From Pseudodesulfovibrio portus (lineage in GTDB: Bacteria > Desulfobacterota > Desulfovibrionia > Desulfovibrionales > Desulfovibrionaceae): 64,000 bases of DNA. Within the stretch, counting starts at the first letter, position 1, and each line of letters starts with the position of its first letter. The position numbers and the translations under genes were made by a program. Positions 1,244 through 25,559 of this stretch are shown in pieces. The stretch is taken from the NCBI RefSeq assembly GCF_026000375.1, contig NZ_AP026708.1, positions 1,986,501 through 2,050,500 of the forward strand, written 5' to 3'. A model generated the notes under the pieces. The model saw only the letters and a list, made by a program, of their open reading frames with translations, made no database searches and was not told the origin of the DNA.

Positions 1244-1672
1244 ATGAAAGCTCTCAGAGCGGCGCGGATGGAGCGGTGTATCGGCTGCCATTCGTGTTCA
1301 TTGGCCTGCGCCCGCCTGGTGCACAAGGTCCTGTCCTGGAACAAGGCGGGCATCCGCATATCCTCGTCCGGAGGATTGTCCACGGGTTTCGAGGCCCGCG
1401 TCTGCCTTTCCTGCCACCCGGCCCCGTGCGCCGAGGCGTGCCCCACCGGTTCCCTGACCCAGCGTCGCGACGGCGGCGTGCTGCAGAAGAAGAATCTGTG
1501 CATCCGTTGCGGGGAGTGCGCCAAGGCGTGCCCCGTGGACGCCATCTTCCTCGACCATGAGGTGAACCCCTACGTCTGCCTCAACTGCGGCCAGTGCGTG
1601 CCGTTCTGTCCCCACGACTGCCTGGAGATGGTCGAACTGCCCAAGAGGGAAGCCGAAGGAGGTGCCCGATGA
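1244..1672 (+). CDS. Polyferredoxin with four [4Fe-4S] cluster motifs, AOR partner
   Basis: A 142-residue iron-sulfur protein with four cysteine groups in order: CIGCHSCSLAC, CLSCHPAPCAEAC, CIRCGECAKAC and CLNCGQCVPFC. That gives 16 cysteines, enough for four [4Fe-4S] clusters, as in the electron-transfer subunits of oxidoreductases such as HycB/AOR-associated ferredoxins. The start at 1244 is chosen because GGAGG lies at 1233-1237; the frame is open further upstream but that part is repeat sequence. Its TGA overlaps the ATG of the AOR gene (ATGA at 1669-1672), so the two are translationally coupled and this protein probably passes electrons to or from AOR. Cytoplasmic: no signal peptide. Confidence 0.9.
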   Translation: MKALRAARMERCIGCHSCSLACARLVHKVLSWNKAGIRISSSGGLSTGFEARVCLSCHPAPCAEACPTGSLTQRRDGGVLQKKNLCIRCGECAKACPVDAIFLDHEVNPYVCLNCGQCVPFCPHDCLEMVELPKREAEGGAR

Positions 1673-3438
1673 TCAGGGATTACTTCCGCATCATGATGGT
1701 CAATTTGACCACGGGAAAGACCACCATCGTCGAGCTTCCGGGCCGGGGCGACTACCTGGGCGGAGCCGGGCTGGCGGCGCATCTGTTCGACAAATACGGG
1801 CATGTGGACCGAGACTGGGACGACCCGGAGCAGCCGCTGATTTTCGCCATCGGGCCGCTGACCGGTTACTTCCCGCTCATGAGCAAGACGTGCTGCGCCT
1901 TTCGCTCCCCGTACCACAATCAGTATACCGAGAGTTACGCTGGCGGGAAGTCCGCCCTGTCCCTGCGATTTGCCGACCTGGACGCCCTGGTGGTCACGGG
2001 CCGGGCCAAGCGGCTGACCGCGCTCTGCGTGGGGTCCCGCCGGGTGGAGACCCGCGACGTGGAGTACCTGCGCGGCTTTGACGCCATCCACACCGGGCGC
2101 GTGCTGCGCAAGATGTTCCCCGGCTCCGGTCGGCGGTCCATCCTGCGTATCGGACCGGCGGGCGAGAACCTGTCCTCCTACGCCTGCATCAACGTGGACA
2201 CCTTCCGCCACTTCGGGCGCATGGGCGGCGGCACGGCCATGGGGGCCAAGAACCTGAAGGGCATCTGCATCCTGGGCGACCGGGGCTTCGGCCTGCCCGA
2301 AGGCAAGGAATACCCCAAGCTGTACAAGGAAATATTCAAGCAGCTGACCACCACCGAGATGATGGCCAAGTATCACGGCCTGGGCACGGCGGTGAACATC
2401 AACCCGCTCAACGAGTTGAAGAGCCTGCCCTGGAAGAACCTGCAGCAGACGTCGAGCCCCGAAGCCGACGGCATTTCCGGCGAGACCTTTGCGGACGATA
2501 CGCTGCTCAGGAACGCGGCCTGCGCGGGCTGCCCGGTGGGCTGCATCCACGTGGGCTTCGTGCGCGAGCAGTTCCAGACCAACAACCAGTACCTGTACCG
2601 CCAGGTGGGCTACGACTACGAGCCGATCTTCTCCTGCGGCGGCATGCTCGAGGTCACGGACGCGTCCGATGTCCTGCGCATCCTGGACGTCATCGAGAAG
2701 GAAGGGTTGGACTGCATGTCCGCGGGCGTGGCCCTGGCCTGGGCCACCGAGGCCCTGGAAAAGGGCGTGGTCTCCACCGAGGAGACCGTGCTCGACCTCA
2801 AGTGGGGCGACGCCGAGACCTACATGAAGGCCGTGGAATTGATCAGCCGTCCGCCCAACGAGTTTTACGCGCTGATCGCCAAGGGCACCATGCGCTGCGC
2901 CGAACGATACGGCGGCCAGGATTTCGCCTGCGTGCTCGGCCAGGAGATGGCAGGTTACGCCACGGGCGAGGTCTTCTTCGTGTCCGAGGGGCTGGGCTTC
3001 CGCCACTCCCACCTGGACTCCGGGGGCTACGCCTACGACCAGAAGCACGAGGACAAGGACGTGAAAAGGGCGCTGGATTTCCTGGTCCAGGACGGCCGCG
3101 AGCGCATCGTGCTCAACTGCATGGTGGGCTGCCTGTTCTCGCGCGGGGTGTACAAGGACGACCTGCTGGCCGAGGCCATGGCCTCGGTGGGCTATGGCGA
3201 ACTGCACGGCTCCGTGGCCGAGATCGGCGCACGCGTGCAAAAGCTCCGCTGGCGGCTCCGCCTCCGGATGGGCTACCGTCCGGACAAGGTCAGGATTCCC
3301 AAGCGGTACACCGAGATCACCACCTGGAAGGGCCCGCTCGATACGGACTACATGGAAGCCCTCCGGGCGGGCTACGCGGCCCGAATCCTCGAAATGGGCG
3401 CCCCCGTCGATGAGCCCGGGGACAAGGAAGACGATTAA
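1669..3438 (+). CDS. Aldehyde:ferredoxin oxidoreductase family protein
   Basis: A 589-residue member of the tungsto-bispterin AOR family, close to the usual 600 residues. Seen: N-terminal pterin-binding domain (YLGGAGLAAHLF, IGPLTGYFP), then a cluster-ligand motif CAGCPVGC with C285, C288 and C292; the fourth ligand would be C484 or C488 in NCMVGC. EGLDCMSAGVALAWATEAL matches the conserved region next to the cofactor. Known: family members oxidise aldehydes to acids with ferredoxin, or run in reverse. The substrate of this member cannot be told. It overlaps the polyferredoxin gene by four bases, which fixes the ATG and suggests a two-subunit enzyme. tRNA-Phe follows. Confidence 0.92.
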   Translation: MIRDYFRIMMVNLTTGKTTIVELPGRGDYLGGAGLAAHLFDKYGHVDRDWDDPEQPLIFAIGPLTGYFPLMSKTCCAFRSPYHNQYTESYAGGKSALSLRFADLDALVVTGRAKRLTALCVGSRRVETRDVEYLRGFDAIHTGRVLRKMFPGSGRRSILRIGPAGENLSSYACINVDTFRHFGRMGGGTAMGAKNLKGICILGDRGFGLPEGKEYPKLYKEIFKQLTTTEMMAKYHGLGTAVNINPLNELKSLPWKNLQQTSSPEADGISGETFADDTLLRNAACAGCPVGCIHVGFVREQFQTNNQYLYRQVGYDYEPIFSCGGMLEVTDASDVLRILDVIEKEGLDCMSAGVALAWATEALEKGVVSTEETVLDLKWGDAETYMKAVELISRPPNEFYALIAKGTMRCAERYGGQDFACVLGQEMAGYATGEVFFVSEGLGFRHSHLDSGGYAYDQKHEDKDVKRALDFLVQDGRERIVLNCMVGCLFSRGVYKDDLLAEAMASVGYGELHGSVAEIGARVQKLRWRLRLRMGYRPDKVRIPKRYTEITTWKGPLDTDYMEALRAGYAARILEMGAPVDEPGDKEDD

Positions 3439-6369: not shown

Positions 6370-6645
6370 TCAAGAACGATCTGATTCGAAAGATATCCGG
6401 CCCGTGGGCACGAAAAGGTCATCGGCCACCGACATCCCCCTTTTGACCGACTCATCGGCCAGTTGGGCATATCGCTGGGTCATGCTCACGGTTTTGTGCC
6501 CGAGAATATGCTGGAGCGTGTAGAGGTCGACCTTGTCGGTGCTGACGAGCCTTGAGGCGAAGGTATGCCGCAGGTCGTGAGGACGAATTTCATGGCGGAG
6601 TTTGCCGGGGATCTTTTTTGTTGTGTGGATATGATCGCGGTTCGT
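6370..6645 (-). pseudogene. Tyrosine recombinase (integrase), C-terminal remnant
   Basis: Minus-strand translation gives KIPGKLRHEIRPHDLRHTF, then ASRLVSTDKVDLYTLQHILG, then HKTVSMTQRYAQLADESVK and about 23 more residues to a TGA. These are the conserved catalytic boxes of phage-type integrases: HxLRH, LGH and the nucleophile Tyr in TxRYAQL. There is no start codon and no N-terminal or central domain. Upstream the frame runs straight into the sulfotransferase gene, so the front half has been deleted. It is the clearest sign that the vsr/HNH/methyltransferase segment came in by integration and is now fixed. Confidence 0.88.
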
Positions 6646-6646
6646 A

Positions 6647-7354
6647 TCAGACCGCGTACCCGTGCTCCCGGAGCCACTGGGCGGCTTGTCCTTCCACGGC
6701 TTCCACGAGCTCCGAAGAGAGCCTGTCCCTGTACCGGCCCGGTCGCCCGTCCAGGAGGTGGTTTTCGTGCAGCAGGGTGTCCGGGTGGTAGGCGATGCTT
6801 TCGCTGACCCGGACCATCGTATCGGATTGGGCCGCCTGCCTGATGCGCTCCGCCTGTCTGGCCGGAGCCAGGTCGGCGGCCAAGCGGGCCGCGAAAGGGG
6901 CGTCCACGGCTGCGCCGAGGTAACGGGCCAGGCTGTTGATCTCCGTTGCCATGTCGTTGATCACGTCCTCGTAGCGGGCCACGTGGGTGTCGGGTATTGA
7001 CGTCCATGCCGCGTGGGCGGCCATGAGGGAGCGGGCGGTGGTCGCGGCCTGTTCCGGCGTGAACCGGCAGCCGAATTTGTCCATCATGGAACTGATCACG
7101 TCCCGCAGATCCCGGTAGATGTAGAGGCATCGCCCGCGTCCCGCGTCCACGGCCCTGCGGATGGCAGGGGTCAGCTCGTGGCTCTTGAAGACCAGGAGCT
7201 CGTCGCCGCCGTCGTCCGCCAGAACACGCTCGTGGTCTCCGGGGTCATGCCAGGTGACGCGGCGGCCCAAACCGCAGTGTTCAACGATACCGCCGGCCAT
7301 CTGATATTGCAGCGTCGAACCTGCCCGCTGCATGCCGCCTGCAAACACCCACAT
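6647..7354 (-). CDS. Sulfotransferase family protein
   Basis: 235 residues from the ATG at 7354, chosen because GGAG lies six bases upstream and the P-loop-like motif then starts at residue 6. Seen: GGMQRAGSTL (5'-phosphosulfate binding), then YIYRDLRDVISSM (3'-phosphate binding loop), and ARYEDVIND. Known: such enzymes move sulfate from PAPS to hydroxyl or amino groups of sugars, proteins or lipids. Located at the edge of the glycan locus and transcribed away from it, it likely decorates the surface polysaccharide. Its stop lies next to the integrase remnant. Confidence 0.8.
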   Translation of the reverse strand: MWVFAGGMQRAGSTLQYQMAGGIVEHCGLGRRVTWHDPGDHERVLADDGGDELLVFKSHELTPAIRRAVDAGRGRCLYIYRDLRDVISSMMDKFGCRFTPEQAATTARSLMAAHAAWTSIPDTHVARYEDVINDMATEINSLARYLGAAVDAPFAARLAADLAPARQAERIRQAAQSDTMVRVSESIAYHPDTLLHENHLLDGRPGRYRDRLSSELVEAVEGQAAQWLREHGYAV

Positions 7355-7631
7355 GCCGTTCTCCGTCGGCGTCCCTGAAAAGGGAGCCCCTTTATCGTCC
7401 GGGCCGGTCGGATGATCCGGCTGTACGTGAGGTAGTACAAATCCCGGCACGGAGCAATCCGCGCGGGAATACGTGAAAAGTTAAAAACATTGATCAGAGG
7501 CGGTGTCTCATCTATTGTCGGCCAATCCTGCCCGGTGCCGAGCCTGGCGGCGAGGGGGCGGTCCCGGTGAAACGAGCTGGGGGCCGCGAAGGAACCATCA
7601 TTCCCGATTCAAGGACCAGCGGACGAACTGT

Positions 7632-10600
7632 ATGCTCACTTATTCCCAGAACTACGAAGACATCATCCTGGACCGGTTTTTCAGGCACAAGGAGACCGGG
7701 TTCTATATCGACGTCGGCGCTCATGATCCCTATGACATCTCGGTGACGCGGAAGTTTTATGAGCGGGGATGGCGGGGCGTCAACATCGAGCCCCTGCCCG
7801 CCTGCATCAAGAAGTTTGAGCAGGCTCGGCCCGGTGACGTCAACCTGCAGATGGCGGTTGCCGAGGGGAAGGGCGAGCGGATTTTCCATCAGCTTGAAGG
7901 TGCCCTGCCCACGGGTTACGATGCTTCGGCTCTGTCCACATTTGATGAGGCACTGGCCCGACGGCTGTGTGTCGAATACGGCCTCGTCACGAATAAGATC
8001 ATGGTTCAAGTCGATTCCCTGAAGAATATCTGTAAGAGTCATGTACCCGAAGGGCAGGGCATCGACTTCCTGAAGGTGGATACCGAAGGTCACGAAGAAA
8101 TCGTCCTCAAGAGCGCTGATTTCAATCGGTACCGCCCGGTTGTTCTGGTTGTTGAGGCGACCAAACCCAATGCGAACCCCCTGGCCACGGCTTCACCGGA
8201 AGACCAGGCCGCCTGGCACGGGTTCGAGGGATACCTCGCCTCGGTGGGATACGATTTCACCTATTTCGACGGGCTGAACCGGTTTTATCTGGCGCGGGAG
8301 CACGCGGAGAGGAAGGGCCTTTTTTCGATCCCGGTAGGGATTTTTGATGGCGTGGATTACGGCAGGCTGGAGCGGGCGCAGCAAGAGAGTGAAGCCGTGA
8401 TCCGTGCCCTGGAAGCGGAGCTGGCCGCGCAGGAGGAACGGAACAAGTCCCTTTCAAGCCGGTTTGAAAAGGAAACCGCAGAGTTGAACCGGCGGCTCGC
8501 GGCCCAGCTGGGACTGAACAGGTCTCTTTCGTCCAAGGTGGAAAAGTACGCCACCGCGCTCGATGCCGAATTCGTCGAACGCCGGAACCTGGCCATAGCC
8601 CTGCACGCCCGGGACGCTGCAGCGAGGAGCGGGCTCCTTGGCCGACTCCTTTCTCCCCGGGTGTCCTTGCCGGAAATCCCCGAGTCGCTCCGGTTGGAGA
8701 AAGAGCCTTCCGGGAGGGCCGTGCACAGCGATCTGAAGATCAGCGTGATCACCCCGTCCTTCAACAGCGGCGACACCCTCAAGCGGGCCGTGGAGTCCGT
8801 CCTGGCCCAGGATTATCCCAACGTCGAGCATATCGTGGTTGACGGCGGCTCCACTGACGGGACTCTGGATATCCTGAATGAATACGAACACCTGTGTTGG
8901 GTTTCCGAACCTGACAACGGCCAGGTCCACGCCATGAACAAGGGGTTTGAAATGGCCTCGGGCGACGTGATCGCCTACCTCAACGCCGACGACTACTACG
9001 AGCCGGGAGCGTTTTCCGCGGTCATGGCCGAATTCACCGATGAGACCATGATGGTCTACGGCAACATCGAGGTCTACGACGAGGCTCGCGGCCAGTGGTG
9101 GACCAACGAGCCGCGTACGGATTTCAAGTCGATCCTGCACCACTGGGAGATGAACGCCTTCTGCGTCAATCCGGTGGGGTACTTCTATCGGCGGGAGGTG
9201 CAGGAGCGGATTCCCTACAGGGAGGAGAACGGGGCCAAGATGGACCTCGCCTTTCTGATGGAAGCCGCCCAGCACTTTGAATTGCAGACCAGGAAGATCG
9301 ACCGGGTGCTGGGGGTGTTCATGAACACCAGGGACACCCGGACCGTGAAGGAGCAGTCCCGGCCAGGGTATTGGACGCCCGGGAATTTCGCCTTCATAGA
9401 CGAGTTGCTGCAGACGCAGCCCGAAGAGTTCCGGCAGGAGTACCGGCGCAGGCAACTGGAAGGCTACGACCGGAGGGAGCGGGAGGCAGCCCACGGAGAA
9501 GGCGGCGGGATATTCCTTCCATCGACGGAGTACGACCTCATCGCGGACGGGGGGTCCGAGGTCGACCCCGGGAAGTACCGGCTGGTCAAGGGCGACCCGG
9601 TCGTGGTTTTCCTGAGCCACGGGAAGGTGGGCAGCTCGGCGGTCTGCCACACCCTGGAGGCGTTGTCCAAGAAAGGCGGCTGGAACATGCCGGTCTACCA
9701 CCTGCACAACTTCAAGCAGAAACTTGCCGTCCCGCAGGAGGAGGCCGCGTACCATCTCCTCTCGGGGCAGGCCCTCCGCCGGGTGTTCGACGACCACCGG
9801 GAGGACCTGGACTGGAAGTTCATCTGCGGCGTCCGGGAGCCGATCTCCTTCCTCCTTTCGTCCTACTACGAGCTATATTTCAAGGAGAGGGGGGAGCCGT
9901 CCATGGACGACGTCAGGGAGGCGCTCCCCGTGCTGCTGCGCTGGCGCAACAACCACATGACAAACGAACTCGGAGAGATCGGCCTGGCCCCCTATCGGAC
10001 CCCCTTCGACCGGGAAGCCGGATACACGATCATGCGGCAGGGGAACCTGTCCCTGCTGGTTTTTCGTCAGGACATGCTCCCGTCCCTGTTCACCGTGGCC
10101 GTGGACGAGTTTCTCGGGATCAAGGGTGCAGGGCTCATCAACGCCAACGTCGGAACGGAGAAGGATATCGTCGTGAACGGCGTGTCCTATGCCGAGAGCT
10201 ACCGCAGGATGCGGGAGACGTTCACCCTGCCGACGGAGGAGCTTGAGGAGATATTCTCGCACCGCAGCGTAACCCATTTCTTCAGCCCCGAGGAGATCGG
10301 CGGTTTCGTGGACTACTGGTCAAGGCCGGGCGAGAACAGGAAGGCGGGCAGCGTCAAGACCGAGAAACCCGACCTGCTCGTGTACGACATCGGACTGCAC
10401 GACGGGCAGGACACGGAGTTTTATTTGAAGAAAGGCTTCAACGTGGTCGCCGTGGACGCCAATCCGGAATGCGTGGGGGCGGCGGCAAAGCGGTTCGAGC
10501 GATTCGTCGCCTCGGGCAGGCTGACCCTCCTCAATGTGGGCATAGCCCGGGAAGACGGTGCCGGTCCGCTGGACTTCTACGTCAACGAGGTCAACTCGGA

Positions 10601-11135
10601 GTGGTCGTCCTTCGTGAAGGAGATAGCCCTGCGGGACGGCCACCCTCACCATGTCGAGAAGGTGGCCTGCCGCTCGTTGGCGGGCATCATCCGGGAGCAT
10701 GGGGCACCCCATTACGTGAAGATCGACATCGAGGGGCACGACGCCATGGCCCTGCGGTCCATGATCGAGGCGGGCATACGGCCCCTGCACGTCTCCGTGG
10801 AAAACGGCAATGAGGGTATGTTGGGGCTGCTTGCGAAGGCCGGGTATTCGCAGTTTAAATACGTGCAGCAGCGTGACGTGCCGGGTTCGCGGGCCATTGT
10901 CCCCGCCAAGGAAGGGGTGAGCGTCGACCATGAGTTTCCGATAGGGGCGAGCGGCCCCTTCGGCGAGGAGGCCCCCGGGCCGTGGCTGGGCTATGAGGCC
11001 GCGCGGCAGGCCATCTCCCGCGTGTGGGACCCCGAGGGGTCGGCCAAGAACCCTGATCACGACGATGCCCGGGACGGCTGGTTCGACCTGCACGCCCGGT
11101 TGGGCGCGGACGCCGGAAACGGAGGTGCGCGATGA
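7632..11135 (+). CDS. Four-domain protein: FkbM methyltransferase, GT2 glycosyltransferase, sulfotransferase-like, FkbM methyltransferase
   Basis: 1167 residues from the ATG at 7632, where the family-typical YSQNYEDIILDRFF begins; the frame is open upstream but not protein-like. Domain 1 (about 1-220): FkbM methyltransferase, FYIDVGAHDPYD and FLKVDTEGHEEIVLK. A heptad-rich coiled coil follows (about 245-330). Domain 2 (about 369-600): GT2 fold, VITPSFNSGDTLKRAVESVLAQ, VDGGSTDGT and acidic NADD at 451-454. Domain 3 (about 655-890): VVVFLSHGKVGSSAV, which resembles the nucleotide loop of sulfotransferases or capsule enzymes, not certain. Domain 4 (about 912-1090): second FkbM-like methyltransferase, LLVYDIGLHDGQDTEFYLKKG and KIDIEGHD. 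It overlaps the next gene by four bases. Likely builds and caps a methylated, perhaps sulfated, glycan in one polypeptide. Confidence 0.82.
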   Translation: MLTYSQNYEDIILDRFFRHKETGFYIDVGAHDPYDISVTRKFYERGWRGVNIEPLPACIKKFEQARPGDVNLQMAVAEGKGERIFHQLEGALPTGYDASALSTFDEALARRLCVEYGLVTNKIMVQVDSLKNICKSHVPEGQGIDFLKVDTEGHEEIVLKSADFNRYRPVVLVVEATKPNANPLATASPEDQAAWHGFEGYLASVGYDFTYFDGLNRFYLAREHAERKGLFSIPVGIFDGVDYGRLERAQQESEAVIRALEAELAAQEERNKSLSSRFEKETAELNRRLAAQLGLNRSLSSKVEKYATALDAEFVERRNLAIALHARDAAARSGLLGRLLSPRVSLPEIPESLRLEKEPSGRAVHSDLKISVITPSFNSGDTLKRAVESVLAQDYPNVEHIVVDGGSTDGTLDILNEYEHLCWVSEPDNGQVHAMNKGFEMASGDVIAYLNADDYYEPGAFSAVMAEFTDETMMVYGNIEVYDEARGQWWTNEPRTDFKSILHHWEMNAFCVNPVGYFYRREVQERIPYREENGAKMDLAFLMEAAQHFELQTRKIDRVLGVFMNTRDTRTVKEQSRPGYWTPGNFAFIDELLQTQPEEFRQEYRRRQLEGYDRREREAAHGEGGGIFLPSTEYDLIADGGSEVDPGKYRLVKGDPVVVFLSHGKVGSSAVCHTLEALSKKGGWNMPVYHLHNFKQKLAVPQEEAAYHLLSGQALRRVFDDHREDLDWKFICGVREPISFLLSSYYELYFKERGEPSMDDVREALPVLLRWRNNHMTNELGEIGLAPYRTPFDREAGYTIMRQGNLSLLVFRQDMLPSLFTVAVDEFLGIKGAGLINANVGTEKDIVVNGVSYAESYRRMRETFTLPTEELEEIFSHRSVTHFFSPEEIGGFVDYWSRPGENRKAGSVKTEKPDLLVYDIGLHDGQDTEFYLKKGFNVVAVDANPECVGAAAKRFERFVASGRLTLLNVGIAREDGAGPLDFYVNEVNSEWSSFVKEIALRDGHPHHVEKVACRSLAGIIREHGAPHYVKIDIEGHDAMALRSMIEAGIRPLHVSVENGNEGMLGLLAKAGYSQFKYVQQRDVPGSRAIVPAKEGVSVDHEFPIGASGPFGEEAPGPWLGYEAARQAISRVWDPEGSAKNPDHDDARDGWFDLHARLGADAGNGGAR

Positions 11136-13528
11136 GCCGGTCTTTCTCGGAGGCAGAGGCGAAACTGACGGTCGCGGTCTGCACCTATCGACGTTTCGAC
11201 GTCCTTTCCCGCTGCCTGGACCACCTGTGCGGCCTGCGGGACGCTGCGTCGTTCAAGGTGCTGGTGGTCGACAATTCCCTTCAGCCGGAGCAATCCGAGC
11301 GGGCGCGGCAGGAGCTGACGGGACGCCACGACGGCCTGCGCTATGTCGTCACGGAGCGGGCCGGGCTGTCCTATGCGCGCAACGTGGCCCTGGAATTGTG
11401 CGAAACCCCCTACCTAGCCTATCTGGACGACGACGCCTTTGTCGAGGCGGGATGGGCCGACGGGTTGCTCCGGGTCTTTGCGGACAGGGGTAGGGACGCC
11501 GGGGTGGTCGGCGGCAGGGTCGTGCCCGCCTGGGAGGGCGGCAAGCCCGAGTGGCTGGAAGGTCTGCTCTTGGCCCCTTACGAGCTGGACCTGGGCGAGG
11601 AAGTCCGACGGCTCGGGGAGGACCGGTGGCTCATGGGAGCCAGCATCGCCTACGACGTCGAACTGCTTCGGGCCGTGGGCGGATTCAACGAAAATCTGGG
11701 CAGGAAGGGCGACCTGCTCCTCTGCCATGAGGAGCTGGACGCGAACACCCGGATAAGGGAACTCGGCAGGTCCGTTTACTACACGGGACGAGCCCGTGTC
11801 CTGCATGTGGTGCAGCGCGAGCGCATATCCCGGGAGTGGATATGCAGGAATGCCTTCTGGGAAGGGGTATCAGAGTGCGTATACGAGGCAGGCCTGGATG
11901 CGAGGTCCTTTACCGGTTCGCAGGTGGAAACACTGGCCAGACGATGTGCCGAACTGCTTGCCGGTCAGCGGGAGCTGACATCCACCGCCCGCCTTCTTGA
12001 GGCTCGTCACCGTTTTGCCCGCGAGGGGCGGAATGCATATGGTTCTCTGGGGTTGAAGTCGCCGGATAAACCCGTGGCCGAGGTGTATATCGTCACCCCT
12101 ACATTCAATTCGGCGGAGTATCTTGACGGGTGCATCTCCAGCGTTTTGTCTCAGAAGGGCGACTTCCGTCTCCATTATCATATTCAGGACGGCGGGTCGT
12201 CTGATCAGACCATGGCCAAGGTGCGGAAATGGCAGACAGACGTCGAGTCTGGGGCGGTCTCCTTCGGTGCCCTTGACTGCACGTTCACCTGTGCATCGGA
12301 GCCCGACAATGGGATTTACGATGCCATTTTGAGCGGCTTCGACTCTTTTGACATGGAGGACGACGCGGTCATGGCCTGGATCAATTCCGACGATGCCCTC
12401 ATGCCGGACGCCGTGGCAAAGGCTGTGGAAGCGCTTTCCCTGACCGGGGTGGATTGGGTCTGCGGGCAACAGAATATTCGCAATGAACAGGGCGAGCACG
12501 TCTGGGATTCACGGCTTTCGTTTCCCACGGCTTTGGTCCGCGCCGGAGCGTGCGACGGCAAGAATTGGGCACACATCCAGCAGGAAGGGGTATTTTGGAA
12601 CCGTCGCCTTTGGAACAAGGCGGGAGGTCTGAATCTTTCCTTCAGGTATGCCGGGGATTGGGAATTGTGGCGTCGATTCGCCCGTTACGCCAACCTGGTT
12701 CAACTACCTTGTGCGCTGGGCGTTTTCACGATGCGGGGGGGGCAGGTCTCTACGACCCATCTGGATGATTACGAAGCGGAAAAGGAGCGCATCCTGCCCC
12801 GGACCGAGCGGAACAGGCGTTGCGCGGAGCTGACGGCGGCACCGGAATATCTTTACACGCACAAGGTCGTCGGGGAGCGTGGGCGGATGAAGCTGGCCGT
12901 CGCCCCCATTGATCCGTATGAAATCCCGGGCTATGAGGGCGGCGGATCGGACTCGCGCCCGAAGCGTACAAAGGCGGCGGCCACGGATGATGCGGCCGGG
13001 AACGGGGTCCGGCCTCGGCTCTCCCTCTGGAATATCTGCGTGGATGCCCCGGCCCTGCACCGGCTCTACCTGAAGTCGCCGCGCACGGTTCAGCGGCTGC
13101 TGACGGCCGTCAAGCACCGGGCGCTCGTTCCCCTGAGGAATGCCTGGAGAAGGCTCCGGGTTTACGGGGCGCTGCAGCGAACCGGGCTGTTCTTCCCCGA
13201 GTACTACCTGCAGCACAATCCGGACGTGCGCGAATCGGGCATGCCGCCGCTCATGCACTACATCCTTCACGGCAGCCTGGAGGGGCGGATGCCCAATCCG
13301 CTCTTCGACGACCGTTGGTACAGGCTGCGCTACCCCGACGTTTCCATGACGGGCGTCAACCCGCTCCATCATTTCTGCCGTCACGGCTGGCGGGAAGGGC
13401 GCGACCCCTGCGCCGGGTTCAGCGTTTCGCGGTACCTTGCGCTCAACCCGGACGTCCGGGAGGACGGGGGCTGCCCCCTTCGGCATTATCTGGTACACGG
13501 GATAGCGGAAGGCCGCAGCATCGAATAG
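11132..13528 (+). CDS. Tandem GT2 glycosyltransferase with C-terminal NPDV/EGR repeats
   Basis: 798 residues. First GT2 domain (about 8-270): VAVCTYRRFDVLSRCLDHL, VVDNS, YLDDDAFVE (DxD-type). Second GT2 domain (about 312-560): YIVTPTFNSAEYLDGCISSVLSQ, DGGSSDQT, WINSDDALMPD. The last 110 residues hold three repeats built on FFPEYYLQHNPDVRESG..PLMHYILHGSLEGR, FDDRWYRLRYPDVSMTGVNPLHHFCRHGWREGR and VSRYLALNPDVREDG..PLRHYLVHGIAEGR. This repeat is seen at the ends of bacterial glycosyltransferases and polysaccharide proteins; its role is unknown. ATGA overlap with the preceding fusion gene indicates coupled expression. Confidence 0.88.
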   Translation: MSRSFSEAEAKLTVAVCTYRRFDVLSRCLDHLCGLRDAASFKVLVVDNSLQPEQSERARQELTGRHDGLRYVVTERAGLSYARNVALELCETPYLAYLDDDAFVEAGWADGLLRVFADRGRDAGVVGGRVVPAWEGGKPEWLEGLLLAPYELDLGEEVRRLGEDRWLMGASIAYDVELLRAVGGFNENLGRKGDLLLCHEELDANTRIRELGRSVYYTGRARVLHVVQRERISREWICRNAFWEGVSECVYEAGLDARSFTGSQVETLARRCAELLAGQRELTSTARLLEARHRFAREGRNAYGSLGLKSPDKPVAEVYIVTPTFNSAEYLDGCISSVLSQKGDFRLHYHIQDGGSSDQTMAKVRKWQTDVESGAVSFGALDCTFTCASEPDNGIYDAILSGFDSFDMEDDAVMAWINSDDALMPDAVAKAVEALSLTGVDWVCGQQNIRNEQGEHVWDSRLSFPTALVRAGACDGKNWAHIQQEGVFWNRRLWNKAGGLNLSFRYAGDWELWRRFARYANLVQLPCALGVFTMRGGQVSTTHLDDYEAEKERILPRTERNRRCAELTAAPEYLYTHKVVGERGRMKLAVAPIDPYEIPGYEGGGSDSRPKRTKAAATDDAAGNGVRPRLSLWNICVDAPALHRLYLKSPRTVQRLLTAVKHRALVPLRNAWRRLRVYGALQRTGLFFPEYYLQHNPDVRESGMPPLMHYILHGSLEGRMPNPLFDDRWYRLRYPDVSMTGVNPLHHFCRHGWREGRDPCAGFSVSRYLALNPDVREDGGCPLRHYLVHGIAEGRSIE

Positions 13529-13543
13529 GAACAGGACAGGCGG

Positions 13544-14314
13544 ATGCGCAACAGCACGTTTTTCGAACTTCTCTGCTACAAGACCGGGGCGAACCTGCGC
13601 ACCGAGATAGCCCGATATCACCTGAACTACCTGTGGTGGGTGCTGGAGCCGGTGCTGACCATGGGCGTGTTCTACGTGATCTTCGACATCATGCTGAACA
13701 GGGGGACCGAGCACTTCGTCGCCTTTCTGCTGACCGGCCTGATATGGTGGAACTGGTTCGCCCGCAGCGTCCAGAACGCGGCGTCCAGCATCCTGAACGC
13801 ACGCACTCTCATGCTCCAGGTGGACATCCGCAAGGCCTTCTTTCCCCTGGAGGTCTGCCTTCAGGACGGTTTCAAGCAGCTGTTCGTCACCGCGTTGCTG
13901 CTGGTCTTTCTTCTCATTTATCCCACGCCCGTGACCGTCACCTGGCTGGCCCTGCCCGCGCTCATGGCCGTGCAGTTCCTGCTCGTCCTCGGCGTGGCCA
14001 CCCTGGGCGCGGCCCTGGTCCCCTTCCTGCCGGACCTCAAGTTCGTCATCGTCACCGGGGTGCAGCTCCTGTTCTTCGGGTCGGGCATCTTCTTCCGCAT
14101 CGAGGACGTGGTCCTGCCCGAGCACCGGTTCATCATGTACCTCAACCCGGTGGCCGGGCTGATCAGGAACTACCGGGAAATCCTCATCAACGGGGCCTGG
14201 CCGGACTGGTTCTACCTGGCCAAGGTGGCGCTGTTCAGCCTGGCCCTCTGCCTGTTCGCCTTCTGGCTGGTGAGAAAACTGGACCGCACGTACCCGTGGG
14301 TGTGCAACCAATGA
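13544..14314 (+). CDS. ABC-2 type polysaccharide export permease
   Basis: 256 residues with about six hydrophobic segments and the ABC-2 layout of Wzm/KpsM/TagG-type exporters: NYLWWVLEPVLTMGVFYVIFDIML near the start, a WNWF amphipathic turn, then MYLNPVAGLIRNYREILING before the last segment. Known: with an ATPase such proteins move finished lipid-linked glycan from cytoplasm to periplasm. Its TGA overlaps the ATG of the ATPase gene. Confidence 0.9.
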   Translation: MRNSTFFELLCYKTGANLRTEIARYHLNYLWWVLEPVLTMGVFYVIFDIMLNRGTEHFVAFLLTGLIWWNWFARSVQNAASSILNARTLMLQVDIRKAFFPLEVCLQDGFKQLFVTALLLVFLLIYPTPVTVTWLALPALMAVQFLLVLGVATLGAALVPFLPDLKFVIVTGVQLLFFGSGIFFRIEDVVLPEHRFIMYLNPVAGLIRNYREILINGAWPDWFYLAKVALFSLALCLFAFWLVRKLDRTYPWVCNQ

Positions 14315-15021
14315 GCGCGGCCATCCTGACATTCGAGAACGTGGCCTTCCGCTACCGCTACCGGGCGGGGCTGATGCGGTTCAAATACCACGACGCCCTG
14401 ACCGACATCTCCTTTTCCCTCGGGCGGGGGGAGACCGTGGGCGTTGTCGGCCGCAACGGGGCGGGCAAGTCCACGCTGCTCCGGCTGATGGCGGGCATCC
14501 TGGCCCCCAGCTCCGGGCGCATCCGAATGGCGGAACCGCTGAACATCTCCCTCCTGACCCTGCATCCCGGATTTTCCCCGGAGCTGTCCGGGCGCGAGAA
14601 CGCGGTGTTGGGAGCCCTGATGAGCGGACGTTCCCGCCGGACCGCCCTGGAGCGGATGGAGGACATAAAGCGGTTCTCCGAGTTGGGCGACTGGTTCGAA
14701 AAGCCCATCAAGTCCTATTCCACGGGCATGCTGGCCAGGCTCGGCTTTGCCGTGGCCCTGGAGATGTCCCCGGACGTGCTCCTGGTGGACGAGGTCCTGG
14801 GTGTGGGCGACGAGGCCTTCCGGGCCAAGTCCACCGCCGCCATGAAGCAAAAGATGCTGTCCGGCCAGACCGTGGTCTTCGTGTCTCATCAGGCGCCGAT
14901 CCTGCGGGAGCTGTGCTCCTCGCTGGTCTGGGTGGAAGAGGGCGTGACCCGGATGGTCGGCCCCACGGACGAGGTCCTGCCCCGGTATCAGGAGGCGCTC
15001 ACCCAACCCGGCGCGAGGTGA
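14311..15021 (+). CDS. ABC polysaccharide export ATPase
   Basis: 236 residues. Walker A GRNGAGKST, signature SYSTGMLARLGFAVAL and Walker B VLLVDEVLGVGDEAF, followed by the switch His in FVSHQ. Such a signature (S-x-G-M-x-x-R) is typical of Wzt/TagH. It ends soon after the nucleotide-binding domain and so lacks the C-terminal glycan-binding domain of long Wzt proteins, which suggests export that does not read a terminal modification. Start at 14311 overlaps the permease stop. Confidence 0.92.
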   Translation: MSAAILTFENVAFRYRYRAGLMRFKYHDALTDISFSLGRGETVGVVGRNGAGKSTLLRLMAGILAPSSGRIRMAEPLNISLLTLHPGFSPELSGRENAVLGALMSGRSRRTALERMEDIKRFSELGDWFEKPIKSYSTGMLARLGFAVALEMSPDVLLVDEVLGVGDEAFRAKSTAAMKQKMLSGQTVVFVSHQAPILRELCSSLVWVEEGVTRMVGPTDEVLPRYQEALTQPGAR

Positions 15022-20494: not shown

Positions 20495-20522
20495 TTGACA
20501 TTTTAGGATGTTCATTGATAAT
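20495..20522 (+). promoter_or_regulatory. Strong sigma-70 promoter of the outer-membrane barrel gene
   Basis: Perfect TTGACA at 20495-20500 and GATAAT at 20517-20522, spacer 16, in a locally AT-rich stretch. The GTG start of the barrel protein is 57 bases downstream. Confidence 0.75.
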
Positions 20523-20578
20523 TGGACTTGATTCTAGACTATATGGTGCATTTGAGCTTTACATATGGGGGATTTGTT

Positions 20579-21601
20579 GTGAAACGTATTTTGGTTTTTG
20601 TCTTGGTCGCAGCCAGCCTGGCTTTTGCTTCTCTTGCCTTTGCCGAAACCAATGGCCAGGAGCAGGCGACAAGCGATGTGGTCAGCACCAGCAGCCAGAC
20701 CCTGTCGACCATGGTGGTTGGTCGGATTTCCTCCATTGTCGCGCCGACGCCCAACGGCGACGTCGCCTTCAACAAGCAGATCGACCAGAACGGCAACTTT
20801 GCTTTTTCCATGGATTCCGAAGAGTTGGGCCTCGCCTCCGGTGATGGCGGCAACAGCTTCGGTATCTGGGGCATGGGTGCCTATTCCAATTTCAAGTCCA
20901 GCGCTTCGGGCGGCAAGTATGATGCCGACGCCTACAACCTGATGCTCGGTTTCGACTGGCGCGCCACCGACGATCTCCTGGTGGGCGTGGCTGCGGGCTA
21001 CGGCGTTCTGGACCTGGACAAGGACAACTGGACAGGCGGCGACACCGGCTATCTCCGGACGGACTACGAATGGACCATCATGCCGTACGCCGCGTACAAC
21101 ATCACCGACACGACCATCGCCGATTTCGCCTTTGCCTACACCGACTCCCGGTACAAGGACAACGACGGCACCAATACCGGCTACTACGACTCCGACCGCT
21201 ACATGACCAGCCTGGGCCTCTCGCAGTACTTCCTGTATGACAGGTGGACGTTCAGCGGCCGCGCCGGATACATGTACGTGCACGGCGACCTGTCCTCCTA
21301 CGCACGCGGGGCAACCGCCGTGGGCAACCCGGACAGCTTCCTCGGCCAGCTCAACCTGGAAGGCAAGATCTCCTATTATTTCGATGGCGGCATCCAGCCT
21401 TACGCGGCCCTGCGCTACTACTACGACACCACCACTTCGTCCCGTCCGGTGGAATCCGACTATGACGAATTCGGCGGCGTGCTCGGCGCAAACTGGTTCG
21501 CAACGGACCAGTGGACCGTCAACGTGGAAGCGGGCAACACCATGGGTAGGCAGCAGTTCGAGGCCTACCGCGGACAGCTCAACGTTCGGTACGAATTTTA
21601 G
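20579..21601 (+). CDS. Outer-membrane beta-barrel protein (autotransporter-barrel-like)
   Basis: 340 residues. Start chosen at GTG 20579, giving signal peptide VKRILVFVLVAASLAFASLAFA with AFA cleavage site and a GGGGGA ribosome-binding site; an ATG at 20543 is less likely. After about 70 residues comes a long series of alternating aromatic strands (FGIWGMGAYSNF, YNLMLGFDWRATDDLLVGVAAGYG, WTIMPYAAYNI, WTFSGRAGYMYVHG, IQPYAALRYYYDT) ending LNVRYEF with the terminal Phe that marks outer-membrane barrels. There is no passenger domain. It has its own strong promoter and terminator inside the glycan locus, so it is regulated separately. A surface-exposed structural or porin role is likely; not assigned to a named family. 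Confidence 0.82.
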   Translation: MKRILVFVLVAASLAFASLAFAETNGQEQATSDVVSTSSQTLSTMVVGRISSIVAPTPNGDVAFNKQIDQNGNFAFSMDSEELGLASGDGGNSFGIWGMGAYSNFKSSASGGKYDADAYNLMLGFDWRATDDLLVGVAAGYGVLDLDKDNWTGGDTGYLRTDYEWTIMPYAAYNITDTTIADFAFAYTDSRYKDNDGTNTGYYDSDRYMTSLGLSQYFLYDRWTFSGRAGYMYVHGDLSSYARGATAVGNPDSFLGQLNLEGKISYYFDGGIQPYAALRYYYDTTTSSRPVESDYDEFGGVLGANWFATDQWTVNVEAGNTMGRQQFEAYRGQLNVRYEF

Positions 21602-22801: not shown

Positions 22802-23631
22802 TGACCGCCTTGGCCCGTGCCGCCCGGCGGGGGCTGGGCGTCGCCCTGCTGCTGGCTGCAGGCCTGTTTCTGTCCGGGTGCCGTGGGACGTTTCCCGCCG
22901 ACGGGTTCGCCGGTCGCCAGGGATTTGTCCCGCGCGTCAGCCATGGCGCTACCTTTGATCTGAAGTGGTATTTGCGCGGCACGGGCCCGGTCCTCCGCGC
23001 CTACATAGAAGGAGACGGCAAGGCGTGGCTCAACCGGCGCAGGCCGTCCACGGACCCCACCCCTGCGGAGGCGACGGCCTTTGCCCTGGCCGCCCGGGAC
23101 ACCGGTCCTGCCGTGGCCTACCTGGCCCGCCCCTGCCAGTTCACCAACAGCGATGAGCGGCGCAACTGTTCTCCGGTCTTCTGGACTTCGGCCCGGTTTT
23201 CCGAACCGGTGGTCAGCGACCTTTCGCTGGTCCTGGACCAGGCCATGCACGCGGCGGGCGCGCGCCGTCTCCAACTGGTCGGCTTTTCCGGCGGCGGGGC
23301 GATCGCCCTGTTGGAAGCGGCCAGGCGGGACGACGTCGAGCTGGTGGTGACCGTTGCCGGGAACCTGGATCACGCCTTCTGGACCGGCCTCCACCGTGTT
23401 TCGCCCTTGCGGGATTCCCTGAACCCGGCTGATTTTGCCCGCCGACTGCAGTCCGTGGACCAGATCCACATCGTCGGCGCAGACGATGCGGTCATGCCCC
23501 CGGCAGTGGTTGAAAGCTATATCGGCCGCATGGACGACCCGTCCCGCGTGCGCGTCGTGACCGTGCGCGGCGTGGCCCACACCGACGATTGGGGGCCCGC
23601 CCTTTCCGCCGTGCTGGAGGGATTGGAATGA
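22801..23631 (+). CDS. Lipoprotein with alpha/beta-hydrolase fold
   Basis: 276 residues. Signal peptide with lipobox LFLSGC gives a lipid-anchored periplasmic protein. The catalytic set of a serine hydrolase is visible: nucleophile in GFSGGGAI, acid in VGADDAVMPP and His in GVAHTDDW. No close functional family is recognised. It overlaps the gene before by one base and the oligosaccharyltransferase gene after by four, so it is part of that unit and may act on glycan acyl groups or on the lipid-linked donor in the periplasm. That role is inference. Confidence 0.8.
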   Translation: MTALARAARRGLGVALLLAAGLFLSGCRGTFPADGFAGRQGFVPRVSHGATFDLKWYLRGTGPVLRAYIEGDGKAWLNRRRPSTDPTPAEATAFALAARDTGPAVAYLARPCQFTNSDERRNCSPVFWTSARFSEPVVSDLSLVLDQAMHAAGARRLQLVGFSGGGAIALLEAARRDDVELVVTVAGNLDHAFWTGLHRVSPLRDSLNPADFARRLQSVDQIHIVGADDAVMPPAVVESYIGRMDDPSRVRVVTVRGVAHTDDWGPALSAVLEGLE

Positions 23632-25559
23632 CCCGCTCCCCGGCCCTGACCGTCGCCTTTGTGATCCTGTGCGGGCTGGCCGTCACGGGGGCGCTGGCCG
23701 TCCATCACACGGACATGCTCGTGGACCGGGGGCTGCACAGCCACGGCGTGCCCCACGTGGGCAACAACGACGGATATTTCCATCTGGACCAGGCCCGGAC
23801 TCTGGCGAGTTCCGGCAGGCCCGTCAGCGGGGTGTTCACGGATTCCCGCCAATCCATGCTCCTGCCGTACCTGCTGTCCTCGGTGGCCGGTGATCCGGAC
23901 ACCCTGCAACTGGCGGCCGCCTACCTGGGTCCGCTGCTGGGATTGTCCATGCTCCTTGCCGTGCTGCCGTGGGCCATGGACGCAGGGTCCCGGTTCTCGG
24001 CCTTTGGCGCTTCCATGCTGGCGCTCCTGTCACCCTACTGGATCACGCGCACGCACGTCGGCTTCCTGGACACCGACAGCCTGGTGCCGGGGGTGTGCCT
24101 GTTCGCCCTGTTCTGCCTCTACCGCTTCACCGTGGGGGAGAAGCTCCGTCTGCTCTGGGGTGCGGGGTACGCGCTGGCTGCGGCTTTTTGCTGGTTCTGG
24201 TGGCGTCCGGGGGCCTTCCTGTGCGCGGGGTTTGCACTCTGCTATCTCATCCACCCGGCAAGGACCAGGGCGGACCGCGTCCTCAAGACCGCCCTGACGG
24301 CAACCCTCCTGATCGGGGCAGGCCTGGCCGTGGCCGGGGTCCGGCCCCTGGCCGGGGTGGTGGCCTACGTCTCTTCACACCTTGAGTTGGCCTTTGGCGC
24401 GACAGAAGGCTCACTGCTGAGCAGCGCCATCATGGAGCTGAAAGGGGTGGGCGTCGCCGGACTCGGGGAAAAGGGACTGGGAACGGTTTGGCTGTTGCCG
24501 TCGGCGGTGGTGGGCACCGTCGCCTACGGGGTCCGTCTTCGCTGGAGAGCGGTTTTCCTGATTTCGGGCTGGGCTCTGGGAATCGCCGGGCTGCTCTCCC
24601 AGCGGTTCATTCCCCTGTTCGTGCCGGTGGGCGCGTTCTTTGCCGCCTACGGCCTGGCCGCCTGCTGTACCTGGACGGCCTCGTTTGCCGGGCGTATCGG
24701 GAAGCCGGAGACGGTGCGCGCCGGGCTCCTGGCAGTGTGCCTGCCGCTGCTGCTATTGGGCGCGGCCTCCAAGGCCGTGAACGCGGAACCGAAGTCCTAT
24801 TTCACCCGCAGCGACTTCGAACTGGCCGAGACCGTGCGCGACTCCTTTCCGCCGGAAACCGTCATCTGGACATGGTGGGATTTCGGCTATTTCTTCCGCT
24901 ACCTGACGGGCATGGAGACCTACTTCGACGGCGGGTCCCAGACCGAGCGCACCTGTTTCGTGGCCGCCTACCCTCTCATGCAGGGGGACGAGGGGGTGGC
25001 CGCAGCCTGGATGCGCCACTTCGCCGGGCCAGGGCCCAAACAGTTCACGGTGGCCGAACAGGGGGAGAGATGGCCCGGGTATCTGGCTGGTTTCACGCAA
25101 AAGATCGTGAACAGTGAGGGCGGTCACGGTCCCGTGGCCCTGGTGCTCCCGGCCCGCGTCTACGCCACCACCACCGGGTTTCTGTATGCCTTTGCCCACG
25201 TGTTCGACGAGACCGTCCCCGCAGTCTCCAACCATCTGGACCTGTTCCCGAAAGAGGGCTTCGAATATACGCCGGGCGGCCAGTCCGTGCTGGTGCCCCA
25301 GGCCATGCTGGACAAGGGATACGATTCCTTCGGCGGCGTGATCGAGGCCACGGGCGTCAACCCGGAAACCGTGGATTTTTCCTCCGTCCCGGACCCCTAC
25401 CTCGTCTTTTCCGACACCGCCGACTTCCTGGCGGTCACGGACCGGCCCATGATCACGTCTGTGCTCTTCAGGCTGCTCGGCCTGTTCCCCTACGACACGC
25501 GCCACTTCGAACCGGTGGCTTTCGGCTACCGGTCCGGGGGCGTGTGGCGCGTCCGCTGA
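23628..25559 (+). CDS. STT3/PglB-like oligosaccharyltransferase
   Basis: 643 residues with about 11-13 hydrophobic segments in the first 400 and a soluble C-terminal part. First acidic motif NNDGYFHLD (D48, D54), second DxD in GFLDTDSL (D148, D150), and the acceptor-recognition motif appears as WWDFG (W416-G420) where the common form is WWDYG. Known: this family transfers lipid-linked glycan to Asn of proteins on the periplasmic side, and Desulfovibrio PglB enzymes are described. The upstream GT, DUF2304-like protein and lipoprotein overlap it in one run, so they probably form a glycoprotein pathway. Start 23628 overlaps the previous stop. Confidence 0.88.
   Translation: MTRSPALTVAFVILCGLAVTGALAVHHTDMLVDRGLHSHGVPHVGNNDGYFHLDQARTLASSGRPVSGVFTDSRQSMLLPYLLSSVAGDPDTLQLAAAYLGPLLGLSMLLAVLPWAMDAGSRFSAFGASMLALLSPYWITRTHVGFLDTDSLVPGVCLFALFCLYRFTVGEKLRLLWGAGYALAAAFCWFWWRPGAFLCAGFALCYLIHPARTRADRVLKTALTATLLIGAGLAVAGVRPLAGVVAYVSSHLELAFGATEGSLLSSAIMELKGVGVAGLGEKGLGTVWLLPSAVVGTVAYGVRLRWRAVFLISGWALGIAGLLSQRFIPLFVPVGAFFAAYGLAACCTWTASFAGRIGKPETVRAGLLAVCLPLLLLGAASKAVNAEPKSYFTRSDFELAETVRDSFPPETVIWTWWDFGYFFRYLTGMETYFDGGSQTERTCFVAAYPLMQGDEGVAAAWMRHFAGPGPKQFTVAEQGERWPGYLAGFTQKIVNSEGGHGPVALVLPARVYATTTGFLYAFAHVFDETVPAVSNHLDLFPKEGFEYTPGGQSVLVPQAMLDKGYDSFGGVIEATGVNPETVDFSSVPDPYLVFSDTADFLAVTDRPMITSVLFRLLGLFPYDTRHFEPVAFGYRSGGVWRVR

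Follow-up and report, generated by a model that had tools for sequence, protein, structure and literature searches.

The window analysed here is a stretch of 64,000 nucleotides of the Pseudodesulfovibrio portus genome (contig NZ_AP026708.1, positions 1,986,501 to 2,050,500), and the gene in question lies at positions 7632-11135 of it. The genome consists of one contig of 3,403,863 bases, in which this gene forms an uninterrupted run of 1167 codons on the plus strand. The encoded protein carries, in the order given by Pfam, an FkbM methyltransferase domain, a glycosyltransferase family 2 (GT2) domain, an NKWYS domain and a second FkbM domain. Translation and domain order confirm the 1167-residue, four-domain fusion that an earlier reading of the sequence alone (the sequence-only reading) had described. 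The fusion comprises the following features:

7632-11135, plus strand: the whole fusion gene, 1167 residues, translated with one terminal stop.
7632-8351, plus strand: FkbM methyltransferase domain 1 (residues 1-240), from Pfam PF05050 at residues 27-180 and stand-alone plasmid FkbM proteins up to 41% identical.
8358-8627, plus strand: helical linker, possible coiled coil (residues 243-332), from a poor structure model and alignment with the linker of the fusion in a congener.
8733-9491, plus strand: GT2 glycosyltransferase domain (residues 368-620, C-terminal limit approximate), from PF00535 and Protein Data Bank (PDB) glycosyltransferases matched by sequence.
9588-10325, plus strand: NKWYS domain with predicted sulfotransferase fold (residues 653-898), from PF10364, a model and structural comparison.
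9618-9638, plus strand: HGKVGSS loop, candidate 5'-phosphosulfate-binding loop (residues 663-669), from conservation in an alignment of NKWYS sequences (A4).
9831-9863, plus strand: VREPISFLLSS, candidate 3'-phosphate-binding motif (residues 734-744), from conservation in A4 and a profile alignment with a 3-O-sulfotransferase.
10371-11132, plus strand: FkbM methyltransferase domain 2 (residues 914-1167), from PF05050 at 36.8 bits on the domain alone and an Azospirillum FkbM relative.

The open frame reaches upstream to a GTG at 7503. The alignments of the listed plasmid FkbM relatives begin at query residue 1, 2 or 3, and that of the congener's protein begins at residue 1; the ATG at 7632 is therefore favoured as the start. 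Along codons 1-1125, the guanine-plus-cytosine (GC) content is lowest at codon position 2 in all 25 blocks of 45 codons and highest at position 3 in 23 of the 25 (0.60-0.98), and given this constant pattern the reading frame does not appear to change along the gene. Third-position GC is 0.719 over codons 1-360 and higher, 0.856, over codons 361-1167; the change is best placed at codon 427, with a log-likelihood gain of 15.8 against 7.1-7.2 for the top three of 300 shuffles. This shift is consistent with a protein assembled from pieces of different history, without proving it. In the adjacent genes of the cassette the value varies between 0.758 and 0.918, and a spread like that within the fusion gene is therefore not peculiar to it.

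Both ends of the protein belong to the FkbM family. Methyltransf_21 (PF05050) matches the whole protein at 111.1 bits in two stretches, the better one at residues 27-180, and the C-terminal domain by itself clears the cut-off of 22.7 bits. The NCBIfam search of the fusion returns TIGR01444 at 96.7 bits (cut-off 37.7), and in the search of its own genome both FkbM places lie above cut-off, at 75.1 and 44.6 bits. The motif DVGAHDP starts at residue 27 and DIGLHDGQD at residue 919, the two spellings that the sequence-only reading had pointed out. The domains are just 24% identical to each other across 194 alignment positions, whereas domain 2 shares 37% identity over 244 positions with an Azospirillum FkbM protein that stands alone, by comparison with which it is complete. 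Since domain 2 is nearer to a separate protein than to domain 1, a recent duplication is rejected, as that reading had already argued. Judging from their family, both domains presumably carry out O-methyl transfer dependent on S-adenosylmethionine.

The linker that follows domain 1 is charged and lacks proline from residue 244 to 316. The model of residues 1-366 is poor (mean predicted local distance difference test score, pLDDT, 52.3) and serves solely to position helices, which it places at 243-293 and 300-332. Three linker ranges were put through a crude heptad test against 2000 shuffles; the fractions of shuffles reaching the observed value were 0.87, 0.48 and 0.37, none significant, and residues 243-332 are for this reason termed just a helical linker. 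The GT2 domain beyond it, proposed earlier between the FkbM ends, is matched by Glycos_transf_2 (PF00535) at 114.1 bits on the whole protein (residues 371-524, cut-off 23.3). A sequence search of the PDB aligns it with glycosyltransferases (best expectation value, E, 1.8e-16), and it contains NADD at residues 451-454, which we take to be the acidic metal-binding motif.

The third domain falls in the NKWYS family (PF10364), annotated as ‘putative capsular polysaccharide synthesis protein’. The match reaches 40.4 bits on the whole protein (residues 783-885, cut-off 25.1) and 43.3 bits on the domain alone, where it covers profile positions 45-139 of 139. NKWYS is the sole Pfam family over cut-off for the isolated domain, with no match above cut-off to PF00685, PF03567 or PF13469, and NCBIfam and PHROGs searches return no family for it. 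The domain contains both a P-loop-like KxGS loop (HGKVGSS) and an RxPxxxxxS motif (VREPISFLLSS). In A4, an alignment of ten NKWYS sequences from which the divergent relative P0002 (see below) was left out, V666 of the loop is invariant, G664 and S668 are kept in at least nine sequences, and position 665 is Lys in six, Arg in two and Gly in two. R735, P737 and S743 of the VREPxxxxxS motif and H692 are invariant (10/10). We assume that the HGKVGSS loop binds the 5'-phosphosulfate and VREPxxxxxS the 3'-phosphate of 3'-phosphoadenosine 5'-phosphosulfate (PAPS). At profile level, a heparan sulfate 3-O-sulfotransferase from the PDB aligns weakly at the VREP motif (E 0.013).

The structure model of the domain, built on 13 sequences, has a pLDDT of 80.9 and a predicted template modelling score (pTM) of 0.82. 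The 1000 PDB chains ranked best by Foldseek were realigned with VIA-align 2 (999 aligned), and the first 50 rows were considered. Rows 1-37 are sulfotransferase-family entries with Z from 9.5 to 7.7, the top row having a root-mean-square deviation of 3.8 over 184 residues; here rows 35 and 37 (retinol dehydratase) and the Teg12/Teg14 rows, not titled as sulfotransferases, are taken to be members of that family. The first different fold, adenylate kinase, has a Z of 7.7, equal to row 37. We conclude that the NKWYS domain is of sulfotransferase type. The sequence-only reading had called it sulfotransferase-like from its KVGSS loop and had named a lack of relation to sulfotransferases as what would speak against it; the model matches sulfotransferases best.

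Viral relatives of the domain connect NKWYS with a sulfotransferase family at sequence level. Nine of the 11 in a second alignment (A6) were scanned, and all nine exceed the NKWYS cut-off, with two passing that of Sulfotransfer_2 (PF03567) as well (25.4 and 22.8, cut-off 22). None of the three viral NKWYS proteins compared with PHROGs at E 0.01 has a family there. The IMG/VR viral contigs L055-L067 carry small stand-alone NKWYS sulfotransferase-like genes, two of them in L055 (5001-5678 and 5883-6575).

A sulfate donor is probably available, since the organism's own genome encodes a 563-residue protein with ATP-sulfurylase and adenosine 5'-phosphosulfate (APS) kinase domains (kinase 190.1 bits), together with further APS_kinase matches above cut-off, and PAPS can thus probably be made. 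APS_kinase is a widespread family, above cut-off in 11 of the 14 control genomes, and such a gene is therefore permissive rather than specific. Going by the model and the motifs, the NKWYS domain would transfer sulfate from PAPS.

The fusion gene opens a cassette that leads into an exporter, and a separate gene stands on its other side:

6647-7450, minus strand: separate, divergent sulfotransferase gene; PF13469 (Sulfotransfer_3) 30.7 bits, cut-off 27, and PF00685 22.7 bits, cut-off 22.
11132-13528, plus strand: the next gene, with two GT2 domains (two PF00535 stretches) and a C-terminal NPDV..HY-type repeat.
13544-14314, plus strand: Wzm-like membrane subunit of an ATP-binding cassette (ABC) exporter, from position and sequence reading; 61% identical over 254 residues to the congener's gene.
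14311-15021, plus strand: Wzt-like ABC exporter ATPase, 236 residues; ABC_tran 76.1 bits, 63% identical over 232 residues to the congener's gene.

The Sulfotransfer_3 match upholds the earlier statement that a stand-alone sulfotransferase gene adjoins the fusion. On the downstream side, the ATG of the next gene overlaps the stop of the fusion by four bases (11132-11135), an arrangement that would be usual within one transcription unit. The C-terminal portion of this gene, about 170 residues long, is a repeat of the type NPDVxxxGxxPLxHYxxHGxxEGR with no Pfam match at the thresholds used; the congener's counterpart gene shares 41% identity with it, and a stand-alone protein encoded next to P0002 shares 51%. 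The linked Wzm/Wzt pair (13544-15021) lies two and three genes downstream of the fusion. The Wzm-like protein has no Pfam match at E 0.01, and the Wzt-like ATPase has no match at E 0.001 to Wzt_C, the C-terminal carbohydrate-binding domain. Further GT2 and group 1 glycosyltransferase genes follow the Wzt gene.

Other genes surround this locus. Downstream are an autotransporter beta-domain protein (20522-21601) and an STT3/PglB-like protein (23589-25559), the latter hinting at protein glycosylation nearby. An aldehyde ferredoxin oxidoreductase gene (AFOR_N, AFOR_C; 1594-3438) adjoins the glycan locus. The segment 4301-6489 holds an HNH endonuclease gene on the plus strand and a C5 cytosine DNA methylase gene on the minus strand, and looks like what is left of a mobile element or restriction-modification system next to the glycan genes; the short minus-strand frame at 6370-6489 is presumably the end of a tyrosine recombinase.

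Two relatives share parts of the architecture. The congener (genome G001) encodes a 1027-residue protein, P0004 (L033:8573-11656), in which FkbM, helical linker and GT2 are likewise joined in one polypeptide; unlike the fusion, it has an extra N-terminal methyltransferase domain and neither an NKWYS nor a second FkbM match. The first FkbM domain, the linker and the start of GT2 align in order between the two at 32% identity over 612 positions, including a gapped linker that is longer in the congener and also charged. Its cassette follows the same order, with a methyltransferase-FkbM-linker-GT2 fusion, a GT2-repeat protein, Wzm (61%) and Wzt (63%), the last having 237 residues and likewise no Wzt_C. 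Given this matched order, lead fusions with changing modification domains precede a similar exporter pair in the two genomes. The second relative is P0002, a 494-residue protein from a Deltaproteobacteria metagenome-assembled genome (JAFGFY010000221.1; L021/L039). It forms a GT2-NKWYS unit 41% identical to the fusion over 480 positions and, as in the window, stands beside a repeat protein (51%) and a GT2 gene, but it has no FkbM match and has lost the sulfotransferase motifs. The same metagenome-assembled genome carries two further sulfotransferase genes.

A GT2-NKWYS fusion occurs in five of 11 cellular NKWYS loci (the window, L015, L021, L042 and L053). L054 has NKWYS alone, and L016-L020, of which L019 and L020 come from one genus, were counted as stand-alone from frames of 265-308 residues without a domain scan. 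A twelfth locus, L014, is not counted, as its frame has 48 residues and contains stops. L053 (231-5711) encodes a protein of 1826 residues matching NKWYS, GT2, group 1 glycosyltransferase and GT41, and a Methylosinus NKWYS-GT2 gene has an APS-kinase gene about 4 kb away and transposase genes in the same stretch. Further fusions of FkbM with glycosyltransferases, besides P0004, are found in L037 (FkbM and group 1 glycosyltransferase) and in an Acidisoma protein (FkbM and group 1 glycosyltransferases).

Each part is known, and the four-domain combination is new in that the searched collections yielded no second case of it. Ten of 297 genomes of the class, the own one included, match the fusion at E 1e-30; with two candidates scored per genome, the listed match in the other nine is one stretch of at most 304 of the 1167 residues. 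In the congener, BLAST extends the match with the fusion to residue 480. Matches occur in 764 plasmid and 64 phage records, in none of which does a single place cover 80% or more of the query. Two few-pattern scans of genome contigs for the architecture gave nothing and then one record already known, and a scan of viral contigs with a GT2-NKWYS alignment gave no match. Given the limits of these architecture searches, the absence of the four-domain order elsewhere is weak evidence. By domain, and counting the own genome each time, the first FkbM with the linker matches 4 of 119 genomes of the family at E 1e-12 (the congener is absent from these matches and apparently not in the sample), the second FkbM 2 of 199 genomes of the class at E 1e-12 (the other match has an internal stop), and the NKWYS family 9 of 395 genomes of the phylum at E 0.001, eight of them above cut-off. 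In the class of genome G092, the NKWYS family is present in 3 of 85 genomes, G092 included. The open PubMed Central (PMC) literature, searched by titles and abstract openings with subscription journals mostly outside, returned no paper on an FkbM-GT2-sulfotransferase fusion and none containing ‘NKWYS’ or ‘PF10364’.

Known glycan enzymes combine similar activities. WsaE of the Geobacillus stearothermophilus S-layer glycan joins an N-terminal O-methyltransferase and glycosyltransferase domains in a wzm/wzt cluster, as here; as described, it differs in having two glycosyltransferase domains and no sulfotransferase or second methyltransferase, with a 2-O-methyl group that is said to act as a cap (PMC2943079). 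ORF6 of Klebsiella O7 similarly carries a methyltransferase and GT2 modules in one polypeptide of a wzm/wzt cluster, with a coiled coil between them; as described, its second N-terminal enzyme is a kinase instead of a sulfotransferase, and it has two glycosyltransferase modules (PMC11231755). WbdD of E. coli O9a, a protein acting on an ABC-exported glycan, again unites two modification enzymes with a helical region; these are a kinase and a methyltransferase, no glycosyltransferase domain is described, and the polymerase WbdA is separate (PMC3482155).

The single frame, the domain families, the sulfotransferase-type fold, the conserved motifs, the PAPS-making gene and the Wzm/Wzt-linked gene order are computed results. 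With moderate confidence, we read the protein as a surface polysaccharide assembly enzyme with several activities: sugar transfer by GT2, O-methylation by FkbM and O-sulfation by NKWYS, followed by Wzm/Wzt export. Assembly of the polysaccharide would take place intracellularly, on a lipid carrier. The GT2 domain would add a sugar, extending or branching the lipid-linked glycan, while the two FkbM domains would O-methylate, and the NKWYS domain O-sulfate with PAPS as donor, the added sugar or its neighbours. Modification would precede export, with the chain still in the assembly complex, and the fusion may keep it in step with sugar transfer. The finished chain would then leave through the Wzm/Wzt ABC transporter. 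In its working mode the protein would resemble WsaE and ORF6 of Klebsiella O7, with a different set of modification domains. Catalysis throughout, the acceptor, the surface-glycan product and the order of steps are what this proposal adds to the computed results.

Several observations weigh against this proposal. The glycan assignment is based on gene order and on general knowledge of Wzm/Wzt systems. Foldseek gave no PDB match to the NKWYS model at E 0.001 or better, and the profile match to the 3-O-sulfotransferase is closely trailed by ribosomal proteins from E 0.036. Among 60 relative genomes, an NKWYS-domain protein was matched in one, the own one. In P0002, the nearest GT2-NKWYS relative, the Gly and Lys of the loop, the Arg of the motif and the His conserved elsewhere have been lost, and the C-terminus is short; the domain can therefore be dispensable in at least one lineage.

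The sequence-only reading had suggested that a single enzyme glycosylates, methylates and perhaps sulfates a chain end. Its functional interpretation is partly supported: the three activities are a fair inference from the domains, whereas action at the end of a chain is not established, the Wzt being without Wzt_C. The strict ‘cap and ruler’ version of an end-acting enzyme, a chain terminator of the WbdD/WbbB/O7 type, is possible but unlikely. In it the N-terminal FkbM domain would cap the non-reducing end and the helix before GT2 would set a minimum chain length, as in WbdD and Klebsiella O7 ORF6, and the C-terminal domains would decorate the repeat. The linked Wzm/Wzt pair and the longer charged FkbM-GT2 linker of the congener fit such an enzyme, and the order of methyltransferase, helix and glycosyltransferase agrees with the description of O7 ORF6. 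The helix, however, comes from the poor model alone, with a heptad test that is not significant. According to the same source, Wzt bears a carbohydrate-binding module in all of its terminated O-polysaccharide examples (PMC11231755), unlike the Wzt of the window and that of the congener; this weakens the strict version.

Somewhat less likely still is a catalytically dead NKWYS domain kept as a structural remnant, leaving in effect a GT2 enzyme with methyltransferases. The motif loss in P0002 points that way, loss of activity is plausible for a domain fixed by fusion, and the loop Lys is not strictly conserved (Gly in two of ten sequences). The copy in the window nevertheless retains G664, V666, S668, R735, S743 and H692, each conserved in 9-10 of the ten, as well as K665.

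An assembly or sequencing error joining two or more neighbouring genes, which the sequence-only reading had itself raised, is very improbable: although the joint at residues 898-914, where NKWYS meets the second FkbM, is bridged by no relative found and rests on frame continuity, the other three of the four joints recur in relatives (FkbM-linker-GT2 in P0004, GT2-NKWYS in P0002), the genome is a single contig, codon-position GC stays in one phase across the joints, and an error would have had to keep all four domains in one frame.

Building on the proposed assembly enzyme, a mixed methyl and sulfate end group might set chain length, with the chain passed to an exporter without a carbohydrate-binding module; we regard this as doubtful. 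Methyl, methyl-phosphate and Kdo ends are described for capped glycans, with sulfation not among them in the portions of the literature covered. If the idea is true, sulfation would be a termination chemistry beyond these caps. With a sulfotransferase-fold domain, two different methyltransferases and a glycosyltransferase on one polypeptide, the coupling of transfer and decoration is directly testable. The analysis also provides computed grounds to regard NKWYS, a family with a vague name, as sulfotransferases; genes in bacteria and in viral contigs would then be re-annotated.

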